Source: Natronosalvus halobius
Lineage (GTDB): Archaea; Halobacteriota; Halobacteria; Halobacteriales; Natrialbaceae
DNA: 64,000 bases
Reading direction: 5' to 3'
Assembly (NCBI RefSeq): GCF_024138145.1
Contig: NZ_CP099997.1
Span: 62,001-126,000, forward strand
The stretch's first letter is position 1. Every line of letters starts with the position of its first letter. The notes under the pieces were generated by a model. It saw only the letters and a list, made by a program, of their open reading frames with translations, did no database searches and was not told the DNA's origin. Position numbers and translations under genes: made by a program. Below are positions 8,031 to 12,669 of this stretch, piece by piece.

Positions 8031-8082
8031 GATACGGATGAGCGCTACTCGAGTGAGACGATTCGGACGAACGCTACTCGAG
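8031..8082. repeat. Pair of 23-bp direct repeats
   Basis: 8031-8053 and 8060-8082 are near-identical (GATACGGATGAGCGCTACT versus GATTCGGACGAACGCTACT, each followed by CGAG), period 29 bp. The second copy covers the last codons of the minus-strand methyltransferase. Confidence 0.7.
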
Positions 8083-8634
8083 CGTCGCGACCAGCAAGAA
8101 CGTCTCCGGACGGACCCCCACGTGCTCGATGGCGAAACCTGCCGTCTCGAGTGCCTCGGTCGCCTCGTTGGCGCTGTAGCGCTCGTCGGTCGGCGGGCCG
8201 TCCTGGCCGGTGCCGCTCGCGCCCCAGTCGACGATGGCGAGTCGCCCGCCCGGCGCCAGGACGCGTCGGATCTCCTGGAGGGCTGCCTCGCTCGCGAACT
8301 CGTGGTAGGTCATCGTCGAGAACGCGGCGTCGACGTCCCCGTCCTCGAACGGGAGGTCGCTCACGTTCGCCGTCACGAGGTCGACGTTCTCGGGGACGCC
8401 CTTCTCGCGGTAGTAATCGTGCATCGCCTCCTGGAGGTCGACGGCGTACACCGTCTCGACGTGCGGGGCCACGTCGTCGGTGAAAAAGCCCGTCCCGCTC
8501 CCGAGGTCGGCCACGGTGTCGGTTTCTTCGGGGTCAACCGCCCAGCACAACTCCTCCCTCGAGCAGAATCGGTAGCGGCGCTCGGCGCGCTCGAGTTTGT
8601 CCGCTCGCGAAGCGTCGAAGGTGTGGTGTCCCAT
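8074..8634 (-). CDS. Class I SAM-dependent methyltransferase
   Basis: A 186-residue methyltransferase. Motif I is TVADLGSGTGFFTDDV, followed by VYAVDLQEAMHDYYREKG, the conserved acidic region ASDLPFEDGDVDAAFSTMTYHEF and LAPGGRLAIVDW. The N-terminal MGHHTFDASRADKLERAERRYRF is a cap helix typical of a haloarchaeal subfamily of small methyltransferases. The substrate is not readable. The downstream partner on the same strand is absent; upstream, with a 4-bp gap, lies the DUF302 gene read in the same direction, so the two are probably one transcription unit. Confidence 0.9.
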   Translation of the reverse strand: MGHHTFDASRADKLERAERRYRFCSREELCWAVDPEETDTVADLGSGTGFFTDDVAPHVETVYAVDLQEAMHDYYREKGVPENVDLVTANVSDLPFEDGDVDAAFSTMTYHEFASEAALQEIRRVLAPGGRLAIVDWGASGTGQDGPPTDERYSANEATEALETAGFAIEHVGVRPETFLLVATLE

Positions 8635-8638
8635 GGGA

Positions 8639-9079
8639 TTAGAGGTTCGCGAAGGCGTCGTCCACCAGTTCGCCAGTTGTGGCCACGATGTCGGCCATCG
8701 CGTCGTCGTCCGGAGCCATCCCGACGAGTCGAGCGATGCGCATGATGCTCACGTGGTAGACGCGCTGGGTGCCGGGCGACTCCTCCCAGATGACGACGTT
8801 ACACGGGAAGATTGCGCCGATTTTGTTGTTCGAAACCTCGAGCGCCTCGTCCGCGACGGCCGGGTTGCAGGCTCCGAGGACGTAGTAGGGATCCCGGTCG
8901 GCGTCGACCTTCTCGTTGAGCAACTCCGAGGGGGAGAACTCGACGGGGACGCCGAAGCCGGCGTCGGTGAACACCTCGCGCACGTGCTCGATGGCGTCCT
9001 CGTGGTCCATCTCGAGGGTGGTCTGTTTCGCGCCGATGTCGTCGGGGTCGATCTCGGCAGGGTCGATAGGGAGCGTCAT
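8639..9079 (-). CDS. DUF302 domain protein
   Basis: A 146-residue protein from ATG 9079 (MTLPIDPAEI). It contains the DUF302 core: a helix with EDAIEHVREVFTDAGFGVPVEF, then YYVLGACNPAVADEALE with the conserved Cys, and IGAIFPCNVVIWEES with a second conserved Cys. DUF302 proteins are small alpha/beta proteins of unknown biochemistry often found beside thiol-redox and sulfur genes; the two Cys suggest heme, metal or redox chemistry, which is inference. Its stop is 4 bp from the start of the downstream methyltransferase, implying co-expression. Confidence 0.9.
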   Translation of the reverse strand: MTLPIDPAEIDPDDIGAKQTTLEMDHEDAIEHVREVFTDAGFGVPVEFSPSELLNEKVDADRDPYYVLGACNPAVADEALEVSNNKIGAIFPCNVVIWEESPGTQRVYHVSIMRIARLVGMAPDDDAMADIVATTGELVDDAFANL

Positions 9080-9345: not shown

Positions 9346-10095
9346 ATGGCCCTCGACACGGACATCACGCGACGGCGGGCGCTACTCGCCGGCGGCGGTA
9401 CGCTCGCGTTCGGCGGCGGGGTCACGTACCTGGCCTCGCGCCCGGACTCGAACCCGAGCGACGAGACGTACGTCCCTGAGATGTCCAATCGGAGCGACGA
9501 GACGACCGGCTTCGGCGCCGAGCTTGCAGGGCGACCGATCGCCGGCGACCTGAACGCCCCCATCGACGTCTACTACTGGACCGACTACCTCTGTCCGTTC
9601 TGTGCGCGGTTCGAGGCGGAGACACTGCCGAAGCTCGGTCGGGAGTACATCGACGCCGGCACGGCGCGGTTCGTCCTCCTTCCGTACCCCACCATCGGGA
9701 GCTACTCCATGGAAGCGATGGTGTGGAGCCTGTGCGTCTGGGACGTAGTCGCCGACGAGACGCCTGCAGCCTACTGGAACTGGCACCACCGCGTCTTCGA
9801 GAGACAGTCGGATGCCGAATCGGGTTCCGACTGGGCGACAGCGGACGCGTTCGCGACGATCACTGATGAGACCGCGGACGTTCCGTTGGCCGACGTCGAG
9901 GCCTGCCGCGAGGAACGGTCCGAGGCCGTTCGAGGCCCGATCCAGGACGACCTCGACCTGGGGCAGTCGGCCGGCATTCAGGGTACGCCCGGCTTCGTCG
10001 TCTACAATCGCGAGACGGACGCAGCCGGGAGAATCGTCGGGGCGCAGCCGTACGACAACTTCGCGGACGCAATCGAGCAGGTTCGAAATGCATGA
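9346..10095 (+). CDS. TAT-exported DsbA-like thioredoxin-fold protein
   Basis: A 249-residue protein. The start at 9346 puts a twin-arginine signal (TRRRALLAGGG, then a Gly/Ala-rich hydrophobic stretch to about residue 30) at the N-terminus, so it is probably folded in the cytosol and exported by TAT, with possible N-terminal membrane retention. The DsbA-like domain runs from residue 72. Its active site is CPFC (Cys83 and Cys86) in WTDYLCPFCARFE, with a helical insertion at 115-195 and the cis-Pro loop GTPGFVVYNRE near 218. It would oxidise or isomerise disulfides outside the cell membrane. Its stop overlaps the next start by 4 bp (ATGA), so it is translationally coupled to a CxxC membrane protein, its likely redox partner. 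Confidence 0.92.
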   Translation: MALDTDITRRRALLAGGGTLAFGGGVTYLASRPDSNPSDETYVPEMSNRSDETTGFGAELAGRPIAGDLNAPIDVYYWTDYLCPFCARFEAETLPKLGREYIDAGTARFVLLPYPTIGSYSMEAMVWSLCVWDVVADETPAAYWNWHHRVFERQSDAESGSDWATADAFATITDETADVPLADVEACREERSEAVRGPIQDDLDLGQSAGIQGTPGFVVYNRETDAAGRIVGAQPYDNFADAIEQVRNA

Positions 10096-10649
10096 CGAAT
10101 CGTCGGATACGGGTACGGACGCGCGAGTGGCTGGACGACCTGGGCGAGGCGCTATCGTTCCCGCTGACCTCGGACGGTCGCCTCGCCGTCGCCACCGCGA
10201 CGACGCTGTTCACGTACGTCGTCCTGGTACTGAGCACGTTTCCGCAGTTCTCGATTCAGGTGTTGACCAGCGAACCTGCCGACCTGTTCTTCGCCGTCGC
10301 GACGCTCACACAGGAGACGTACGCCAGCTCTGGCTGGCTCGGTCTCGGACTGCTAACGCTGTACGCCCTCTTGACGGGTGTTGCGGTGACGAACGGGGTC
10401 GCTCTCGTTCGTCGCGCTCGTCGCCGAAGTGCGTCAACGGTCGTGGGGATCGCACCGGGGCTGCTCGCCGCGGGCTGTGCGAGCTGCGGAGCCGGCGTCC
10501 TCGGCGTCCTGGGCTTCGCCGGAGCGATGGCGCTCCTGCCGTTCGACGGCAACCTCCTTCGACTCGCCGGAATCAGCCTGCTGGTGTTCGTCCTCGGCCG
10601 AACAGGCGATCCGCGGACGTGTTCGATGTCGAGGTTAGCGGGGTCGTGA
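10092..10649 (+). CDS. Four-helix membrane protein with GCxSC motif, coupled to DsbA-like gene
   Basis: A 185-residue protein with hydrophobic helices at about 32-51, 80-105, 117-148 and 152-169. The third helix contains AAGCASCGAGVLGVLG, with Cys129 and Cys132 inside or at the edge of the membrane. CxxC pairs in membrane helices occur in DsbD/CcdA, VKOR and MerT-like carriers, but this protein matches none of them by overall layout. A further Cys177 sits near the C-terminus. It overlaps the DsbA-like gene by 4 bp, so a role in keeping that protein reduced or oxidised is the natural reading. The motif and the helix after it resemble those of the next gene. Function is inferred from context; I know no named family. 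Confidence 0.85.
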   Translation: MTNRRIRVRTREWLDDLGEALSFPLTSDGRLAVATATTLFTYVVLVLSTFPQFSIQVLTSEPADLFFAVATLTQETYASSGWLGLGLLTLYALLTGVAVTNGVALVRRARRRSASTVVGIAPGLLAAGCASCGAGVLGVLGFAGAMALLPFDGNLLRLAGISLLVFVLGRTGDPRTCSMSRLAGS

Positions 10650-10783
10650 GTCCCTGCCGGGCGGTTCGTCCGACGTTCGTCGTTCCTGTTGGGCCTCGAG
10701 CCTTTCGCGAGACGGGTGCATCATCGTGGTGCTTTAGTGGGATTTACGCACAATAATAGGACGTATAGCACATCGATTCACAC

Positions 10784-11245
10784 ATGCAGGACTCCATTCG
10801 ACCCGACGACACGACAGCCGACACGACTGCCTCCTCGAGCACTCGAAAACGCGCACTCACGAGCGTCGGCGTCGCCGTCGGCGTCTTTTTGCTGTTCGGT
10901 ACGGTGACTGGACTCGTCCCGAACCCACTCTACGTTCGAATGGTCCCTCGGACGCCCCTCGACTACCTGTTTCTCGTTGCGACGTCGGTGTTCGCCGGCG
11001 CGTTCGTCTACCAGCGGGCGACCCTCGGGGGTTCGACGAACGACCGAACCGCGTTCGGCGGGGTCGTCGGCGGATTCCTCGCCTTCGGCTGTCCGACCTG
11101 TAACGTGGTCCTCCTGGCGCTCTTTGGCTCCTCCGCGTTGATGACGTACGTCGATCCGCTGCGACCGCTGCTGGGCGCCGTGAGCGTCGCGCTCTTCGCG
11201 GGATTGCTCTACGTGCAGCGTCGACGCGGCTGTCGCACCTGTTGA
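10784..11245 (+). CDS. Membrane protein with GCPTC motif and C-terminal CxxC
   Basis: A 153-residue protein with hydrophobic helices at about 25-45, 61-78, 92-120 and 127-145. The third helix carries GGFLAFGCPTCNVVLLALFG with Cys103 and Cys106, matching the GC-x-[ST]-C pattern of the preceding gene in the same topological position. A second pair, Cys150 and Cys153 (RRRGCRTC at the very end), is absent from the neighbour and could pass electrons from the membrane pair to the cytosol or bind a metal. The 134-bp gap before it has AT-rich elements near 10751-10766, so it may have its own promoter. I infer that it works with the DsbA-like protein and the membrane protein before it. Confidence 0.85.
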   Translation: MQDSIRPDDTTADTTASSSTRKRALTSVGVAVGVFLLFGTVTGLVPNPLYVRMVPRTPLDYLFLVATSVFAGAFVYQRATLGGSTNDRTAFGGVVGGFLAFGCPTCNVVLLALFGSSALMTYVDPLRPLLGAVSVALFAGLLYVQRRRGCRTC

Positions 11246-11322: not shown

Positions 11323-12669
11323 ATGAGCGATCCCTTCGTCGTGATCGGTGGAGACGCGGCCGGAATGAGCGCCGCCAGCAAGGCGAAACGCGAGGATTCC
11401 GAGCGGGACGTGATCGTCTTCGAGAAGGGCGAGTGGGTCTCGTACGCCGCCTGCGGGATGCCCTACTACGTCAAAGGCGACGTCGAGGATCTCGAGGACC
11501 TCGTCGCAATGACCGCCGAGACGTTCCGCGATGAACGGGACATCGACCTCCGGACGGGTCACGAGGTGGTCGAGATCGACCCCGAGCGCGAGGTCGTCGT
11601 GGTCGAGGCCGACGGAGACACGTTCGAGCAACCTTACGGTCACCTCCTGGTCGCAGTCGGTGCGCGGGCGATCGAACCGCCCTTCGACAGGCTCGGCCTC
11701 GAGGGCGTGTTCACGATCCACGACATGGACGAGGCCGACGCGATCGAACGCTACGTGCGCGAGCACGACCTCGAGACGGCCGCCATCGTCGGCGGGGGCT
11801 ACGTCGGGATCGAGATGGCCGAGGCACTCTCGGCCCACGGCCTCGCCGTCGACCTCTACGAAATGCTCCCCCACGTCCTCCAGCCCTTCGGCGAGGCGGT
11901 CGCCGACGTCGTCGGAGACCACCTCCGTGAGCAGAGCGTCACCCTCAACCTCGATACCGCCGTCTCGGGCTTTTCGGGTGACGACCGCGTCGAGCGCGTC
12001 CACCTCGAGGACGCCGACGAACCGGCCGACGTCGCCATCGTTGGCGTCGGAGTGGCCCCAAACGTCGAACTCGCGGCCGACGCCGGCGTCGAGGTCGGTG
12101 AAACGGGCGCCATCGCGGTCGACGAGTACGGCCGAACGAACGTCGAGAACGTCTACGCGGCGGGCGACTGCGCCGAAGCGCGCCACGTCGTCACGGGCGA
12201 GCCGGATCACGTACCCCTCGCACTGACGGCCAACCGCGCCGGCCGAGCGATCGGCGAGACCGTCACTGGTTCGCCGACGCCCGTCGGCGGAATCGCAGGG
12301 ACTGCCATCGTGAAAGCCTTCGACCTCGGGGCAGCCAGGACGGGACTCCTGGACGAGGAGCGAGCCTGCGAGGCCGGCTTCGATCCCGTCTCGGTCACCA
12401 TCACGGCGGCGACGCGCGCCCACTACTACCCCGGCGGTGCGGATCTCACGGTCACGCTGGTCGCTGACCGCGAAGATGGAACGTTGCTCGGCGGCAGCGT
12501 CGTCGGTCGCGAGGGCGCAAAGCGCATCGACACCGTGGCGACGGCGCTCGAGGCGGGGATGACCGTTACCGACCTCCAGAACGCAGACCTGGCGTACGCC
12601 CCGCCGTTCAGTCCAGTCTGGGATCCGATCCTCACCGCAGCGAAAGTCCTCGGCGGGAAACTCGAGTGA
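11323..12669 (+). CDS. FAD-dependent pyridine nucleotide-disulfide oxidoreductase, CoA-disulfide reductase-like
   Basis: A 448-residue flavoprotein from ATG 11323. It has an N-terminal FAD motif (VVIGGDAAGMSAAS) and an active site SYAACGMPYYV with a single redox Cys44, as in CoA-disulfide reductase, NADH oxidase and NADPH persulfide reductase. The NAD(P)H motif is AAIVGGGYVGIEMAEAL, the second FAD motif is VYAAGDCAE, and a C-terminal dimerisation domain is present (HYYPGGADLTVTLV). The two-Cys disulfide pair of glutathione reductases is absent, consistent with the CoADR/Nox branch. It would reduce CoA-disulfide or low-molecular-weight persulfides in the cytosol. It overlaps the M20 peptidase gene at TGATG. 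Choice between CoADR, Nox and persulfide reductase cannot be settled by eye. Confidence 0.88.
   Translation: MSDPFVVIGGDAAGMSAASKAKREDSERDVIVFEKGEWVSYAACGMPYYVKGDVEDLEDLVAMTAETFRDERDIDLRTGHEVVEIDPEREVVVVEADGDTFEQPYGHLLVAVGARAIEPPFDRLGLEGVFTIHDMDEADAIERYVREHDLETAAIVGGGYVGIEMAEALSAHGLAVDLYEMLPHVLQPFGEAVADVVGDHLREQSVTLNLDTAVSGFSGDDRVERVHLEDADEPADVAIVGVGVAPNVELAADAGVEVGETGAIAVDEYGRTNVENVYAAGDCAEARHVVTGEPDHVPLALTANRAGRAIGETVTGSPTPVGGIAGTAIVKAFDLGAARTGLLDEERACEAGFDPVSVTITAATRAHYYPGGADLTVTLVADREDGTLLGGSVVGREGAKRIDTVATALEAGMTVTDLQNADLAYAPPFSPVWDPILTAAKVLGGKLE

Follow-up and report, generated by a model that had tools for sequence, protein, structure and literature searches.

A conserved DsbA-linked pair of four-helix membrane proteins in haloarchaea, with relatives on bacterial plasmids

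We analyze a set of three genes in a 64,000-nucleotide stretch of Natronosalvus halobius DNA ("the window," to which all coordinates without a locus label refer), in which a gene for a secreted DsbA-like protein is followed by genes for two four-helix membrane proteins, here called TM1 and TM2. The set is real, conserved across haloarchaea, and unnamed. Profile comparison makes TM1 and TM2 distant paralogues, each a branch of a single unnamed family with a CxxC motif in helix 3 and further cysteines on the predicted cytosolic side, and we found no description of the pair in the open-access literature. The best explanation, to which we give close to an even chance, is that the family carries thiol exchange between its dedicated secreted DsbA-like protein and the cytosol, in the direction of outward reduction. 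In a wider and tentative description, TM1 and TM2 might be a further class of DsbA-partner in archaea and (for TM2) bacteria: a small conduit with a MerT-like hairpin that, in sulfane-sulfur and copper handling, would move thiol-bound cargo or electrons from one side of the membrane to the other via the mid-helix CxxC together with a cysteine site on the cytosolic side.

The plus-strand order in the window is DsbA-like gene, TM1, TM2, and then a gene for a flavoprotein of the CoA-disulfide-reductase type. The DsbA-like thioredoxin-fold protein (249 aa; 9346-10095, +) starts at an ATG with a Tat-type N-terminus (MALDTDITRRRALLAGGG) and has both a CPxC active site (CPFC, read in the sequence at 9592-9603, +) and a TP cis-proline motif (QGTPGF). 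It matches Thioredoxin_4 (PF13462, E 2e-16) and DSBA (PF01323, E 1e-8) in Pfam, both over cut-off. Among solved structures, the closest by sequence is BdbD of B. subtilis (E 2e-19), a known oxidase, followed by DsbA and metal-resistance/ScsC-type entries. The TGA of the DsbA-like gene (10093-10095) and the ATG of TM1 at 10092 share the letters ATGA, a 4-bp overlap, and the gap from TM1 to TM2 is 134 bp. An earlier note on this DNA had reported the twin-arginine signal, the CPFC and the overlap, and had placed GCASCG of TM1 and GCPTCN of TM2 in the third of four hydrophobic segments; the sequence confirms each of these. The flavoprotein gene (11323-12669, +) encodes a cytosolic FAD/NAD(P)H disulfide reductase of the CoA-disulfide/persulfide reductase type, a possible electron source judging by its position. 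On the other side lies a recurrent neighbour, a DUF302 protein (8639-9079, -); a methyltransferase gene and this DUF302 gene, just upstream in the window (8074-9079, -), occur together at many DsbA-TM1 loci.

TM1 (185 aa; 10092-10649, +) carries GCASCG (C129 and C132; 10473-10490, +) in helix 3 and a third cysteine, C177 (10620-10622, +), in its predicted cytosolic tail. Both the motif and C177 are invariant in 66 aligned sequences; the motif is present at 74 of 75 haloarchaeal loci, and at 65 of the 75 the protein has exactly three cysteines, the third close to the C-terminus. No conserved cysteine appears in the outer loop, either in the 66-sequence alignment or at the 75 loci. Charge counts under the positive-inside rule favour a cytosolic position for both ends, with a net positive charge on the N-terminus, 2-3 loop and tail and a negative one on the 1-2 loop (+0.7/-3.0) and 3-4 loop (0/-0.7). 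Having a single tail cysteine, TM1 alone could form no tail disulfide. It belongs to no Pfam or NCBIfam family, its AlphaFold model falls below pLDDT 50 at residues 126-130, and it was detected in haloarchaea only, among the sequences searched, which for bacteria were plasmids. Natronococcus jeotgali has a decayed TM1 copy, its motif turned into SGRASRGAG, beside an intact TM2 (L083:7131-7526, the same place as L175).

TM2 (153 aa; 10784-11245, +) has GCPTCN (C103 and C106; 11087-11104, +) in helix 3 and ends in a second CxxC, CRTC (C150 and C153; 11231-11242, +). All 45 haloarchaeal TM2 proteins linked to TM1 have both CPxCN and the C-terminal CxxC, the latter being invariant in the haloarchaeal alignment, and the C, P, C and N of the motif are invariant in 20 archaeal and bacterial sequences. 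By charge, the N-terminus and tail are clearly inward and the loops near neutral, so that the predicted topology rests partly on kinship with TM1. TM2, too, has no Pfam or NCBIfam family, and the mean pLDDT of its AlphaFold model is 67. In some TM2 proteins, helices 2 and 3 are joined by a long loop rich in His and Asp, which resembles the metal-binding loops of ion transporters (L077:7022-7630, -; L152:5510-6061; L143:5513-6082).

In stand-alone relatives of TM2 the tail pair is missing, and two cysteines occur instead in the 2-3 loop, which is predicted to face the same side. At L086 and L091-L095, all TM2 loci without TM1, ACPHCN is accompanied by a loop pair of the C-x-G-D-x-C type and the C-terminal CxxC is missing; the loop cysteines of stand-alone L090 are, by eye, spaced further apart. 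Each bacterial TM2 protein examined has at least one cysteine in the tail or 2-3 loop position (by eye). This swap between tail and loop suggests that cysteines on the predicted cytosolic face of TM1/TM2 relatives form a functional site, a feature absent from the earlier note, which mentioned neither C177 of TM1 nor CRTC of TM2. Chance is excluded as the origin of the layout: over tens of haloarchaeal genomes, the cysteines of motif and tail vary hardly or not at all. Several stand-alone TM2 loci lie in conserved housekeeping surroundings, with PurM-, Dps- and macro-domain-like genes (named by eye).

Kinship between the two membrane proteins emerges when TM1 is compared by hhalign with a broad TM2 alignment of haloarchaeal and bacterial members (probability 88-96% by direction, E 3e-6 to 6e-9), while most unrelated membrane-family pairs in the same comparison gave 0.1-6%. 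Haloarchaeal sequences alone gave 15% (first, narrow alignments) and 78%, so the conclusion depends chiefly on the broad set. Neither protein has a Pfam match to DsbB (PF02600) or VKOR (PF07884), and hhalign gives only 0.1-0.3% against haloarchaeal DsbB, 0.1-0.4% against VKOR and 1.0-1.6% against CcdA/DsbD_TM (PF02683), from which both also differ in having the two motif cysteines in one helix; as a DsbB-versus-VKOR control reached just 1.7%, such low scores carry little weight against remote kinship. The earlier view that TM1 and TM2 stand outside DsbB, VKOR and CcdA is thus borne out by profile and by the lack of a named family. No similarity to MerC was seen. PDB sequence searches with the two profiles returned chance matches only, and Foldseek of the AlphaFold models against the PDB found no fold match, the models being too weak at the motif to count against a fold.

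The association of TM1 with DsbA-like genes was seen first in whole genomes and then in 75 named loci. A DsbA profile match lies within 3 kb of TM1 at 72 of these 75, which is the conserved co-occurrence on which the earlier note had staked its proposal. At 36 of the loci the two genes share a strand with a gap of less than 10 nt or an overlap, and at 26 of the 72 they are divergently transcribed. Within ~5 kb of TM1, raw counts among the 75 loci are 28 for thioredoxin, 16 for CoADR-like, 15 for DUF302, 12 each for MBL-rhodanese and SCO, 12 for CcdA (16 by clustering), 8 for TlpA and 5 for halocyanin; DsrE, TusA and TauE are further sulfur/copper neighbours. In the comparison set, which consists of 14 stand-alone TM2 loci, the tested families (thioredoxin and CoADR-like included) occur at 0 of 14. 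An 84-aa two-helix protein with SLCC in its first helix and cysteines at the C-terminal end, a MerF-like layout, is encoded at 20 of the 75 TM1 loci (L116:2763-3014, -, and 19 similar genes).

The earlier note had imagined a haloarchaeal system, and for TM2 that limit is wrong: tblastn against plasmids finds homologues in ten bacterial genera, namely Rhodococcus, Arthrobacter, Mycolicibacterium, Streptomyces, Pseudonocardia, Rubrobacter, Azospirillum, Tabrizicola, Sinorhizobium and Thermomicrobium. Wherever the gene is listed it is annotated as a hypothetical protein. Its company often includes a DsbA/Trx-like gene, one for CcdA or DsbD, and genes of sulfane-sulfur or copper handling. Pseudonocardia, for instance, has DsbA-CcdA-TM2 with 4-bp overlaps; Azospirillum has DsbD-DsbA-TM2 and then sulfur transferase, MBL-fold protein, TauE and YeeE genes; in Streptomyces, TM2, thioredoxin-like and CcdA genes adjoin rhodanese and TauE genes; and in Rhodococcus and Arthrobacter, TM2 stands beside DsbA/Trx-like and CcdA/DsbD genes, with DsrE and DUF302 also present. 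The Thermomicrobium and R. erythropolis CERE8 genes have no such partner alongside. On an Arthrobacter plasmid, a "CYT" module of a regulator, two "CcdA" proteins, DsbA and DsrE has been described next to a sulfur module (PMC6305408). One of its five positions is the TM2 homologue in the pA58H2 record, where only one gene is annotated CcdA, versus two in the paper. The CcdA label that those authors apparently gave to the TM2 gene is unsupported, since TM2 has no profile similarity to haloarchaeal CcdA.

These observations support a reductive thiol relay through the DsbA-like linkage, the TM1/TM2 homology, the tail or loop cysteines that every TM1/TM2 relative examined has on the same predicted side, the bacterial redox partners and the sulfur/copper neighbours. 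Stepwise thiol exchange suits the anatomy, with cysteines placed on the predicted cytosolic side, in mid-membrane and, as CPFC, outside. A cytosolic thiol donor, either thioredoxin or the neighbouring CoA-disulfide-reductase-type flavoprotein, would reduce C150/C153 of TM2 and C177 of TM1; from these, reduction would pass to the CxxC halfway along helix 3 (C103/C106 and C129/C132, respectively), and from there to the extracytoplasmic CPFC of the DsbA-like protein, which in its reduced form might then handle thiols damaged by sulfane sulfur or copper outside the membrane. We infer the contact with the DsbA-like protein, the outward direction and the substrate; outward reduction is favoured by the nearby genes for cytosolic thioredoxin and CoADR and by the CcdA/DsbD partners in bacteria. 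Against the relay, bacterial operons that already have CcdA or DsbD should need no second reductive channel, the DsbA-like protein is closest in sequence to BdbD, TM2 resembles MerT, a metal-ion carrier, TM1 has a single tail cysteine, and the predicted structures are weak at the motif and give no fold match. The electron-carrier relay of the earlier note stays plausible, and gains from the conserved DsbA linkage, but the MerT likeness makes transfer of thiol-bound cargo a live alternative.

That likeness is moderate but repeated. TM2 scores 65-73% against MerT profiles in hhalign (E 3e-5 to 6e-5), far above 100 column shuffles (≤2%), the reversed profile (0.7%) and other membrane families (≤4%, apart from 5.5% for a small CC-hairpin family). 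In Pfam and NCBIfam scans of 20 TM2 members, too, MerT comes up most often, every match lying below cut-off (best member 16.3 bits against 32.9 for PF02411; best NCBIfam E 0.014). The resemblance is limited to the helix 3-4 hairpin, where CPxC aligns with the MerT helix cysteines, and only TM2 combines a helix pair with a cytosolic pair on the following hairpin, the side being predicted from charge counts. On these grounds TM2 may be a distant MerT relative. In MerT itself, Cys24/25 of the first helix take Hg(II) over from MerP, and the ion moves on to Cys76/82 at the cytoplasmic face and then to MerA (PMC5715351). By analogy, the DsbA-like protein or a small thiol would bind a soft cargo (sulfane sulfur or Cu(I)) and hand it to the helix-3 CxxC of TM2/TM1, from where it would reach the cytosolic cysteines and cytosolic acceptors. 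Such an importer is a serious rival to the relay, if a less likely one in our judgement, and it would make sense of the His-rich cytosolic loop of some TM2 proteins, the copper/sulfur neighbours and a flavin disulfide reductase downstream, like MerA in mer. However, TM1, which accompanies DsbA more constantly than TM2 does, lacks the MerT signal (hhalign 0.3-1.7%); the gene neighbourhoods examined contained no recognisable mer genes; in place of a MerP-like metal-binding domain, the partner is a redox protein with a thioredoxin fold; and one hairpin is all that is alike.

The source genome lacks DsbB and VKOR. A search with PF02683 suggested that it had no CcdA either, wrongly: the haloarchaeal CcdA is overlooked by this profile and recovered by a protein query, so absence calls with PF02683 are unsafe in haloarchaea. 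An SCO-TlpA-CcdA operon lies at about G000:C1:186300-188375 (L213:4306-6376), ~113 kb from DsbA-TM1-TM2, and the claim that TM1 and TM2 are the only membrane candidates accordingly holds within the window but not genome-wide. The genome also encodes a second DsbA-like protein, a lipoprotein with CGHC. In other haloarchaea, overlapping DsbA-DsbB pairs stand in a position like that of DsbA-TM1 (L204:1555-2965; L206:1699-3109).

Across 194 haloarchaeal genomes, TM1 and DsbB occur together in 7 versus 12.2 expected under family-stratified shuffling (P = 0.011; Mantel-Haenszel odds ratio 0.30), an avoidance that finer relatedness could inflate, as stratification was by family only. This avoidance would fit a DsbB/BdbC-like oxidase, in which TM1 (with TM2) re-oxidises the DsbA-like protein and passes electrons to quinone or a cytosolic acceptor as a stand-in for DsbB; so would the 24 of 43 TM1 genomes without DsbB and VKOR, the DsbA-DsbB overlap in the same arrangement in some haloarchaea, and BdbD as the nearest solved structure. 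We consider it improbable, because DsbB and VKOR need a second extracytoplasmic cysteine pair, which TM1 lacks, the extra conserved cysteines lying on the predicted cytosolic side; VKOR is not avoided, TM1 being independent of it (P 0.37); 56 of the 194 genomes have none of TM1, DsbB and VKOR; and the bacterial partners CcdA and DsbD are reductive. A general replacement of DsbB and VKOR by TM1 is rejected on the second and third of these points. Least probable of all is mere co-regulation, with TM1 and TM2 doing something else within the same stress response, in no direct thiol contact with the DsbA-like protein: it would explain TM2 standing alone beside housekeeping genes and the divergent DsbA/TM1 loci, but not the gene overlap, the near-constant adjacency or the invariant cysteines.

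To our knowledge, secreted thioredoxin-fold proteins have DsbB, VKOR and CcdA/DsbD as their recognised partners in the membrane. If the relay is true, an unnamed DsbA-linked family with a different cysteine layout, in archaea and bacteria, would be an additional membrane route, and TM1 and TM2 would help explain thiol handling in haloarchaea without DsbB and VKOR, the source genome included. If the TM2 and MerT hairpins share descent, mercury transport would be connected with ordinary thiol or sulfur traffic.

Among known systems, DsbB/BdbC resembles TM1 as a four-helix partner of a DsbA-like protein, in its overlapping genes in some haloarchaea and in the mutual avoidance of the two, but differs in its second extracytoplasmic cysteine pair and shows no profile similarity. 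MerT (PF02411) shares with the TM2 hairpin a cysteine pair in a helix, an acidic/Pro/Arg turn and a cytosolic cysteine pair after the next helix, whereas it has three helices and not four, CC and not CPxC, MerP and not a DsbA-like protein as partner, matches only below curated cut-offs, and does not match TM1. Like TM1/TM2, the transmembrane domain of CcdA/DsbD has membrane-embedded cysteines and an extracytoplasmic partner with a thioredoxin fold, to which its cysteines deliver reducing equivalents, and it is found in common gene clusters with them; it has a single cysteine in each of two helices, in contrast to a CxxC in one, and scores about 1% in hhalign against TM1/TM2, which have four helices and a second, predicted cytosolic cysteine site. 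No counterpart of TM1 or TM2 is known to us from Scs (suppressor of copper sensitivity) clusters. Set against an ScsB/ScsC/ScsD set in a single operon, Azospirillum has DsbD-DsbA-TM2, and in the source genome SCO-TlpA-CcdA lies apart from DsbA-TM1-TM2. Scs, too, brings together DsbA-like, DsbD/CcdA-like and TlpA-like genes in settings of copper or thiol stress (PMC8900818, PMC3672137).
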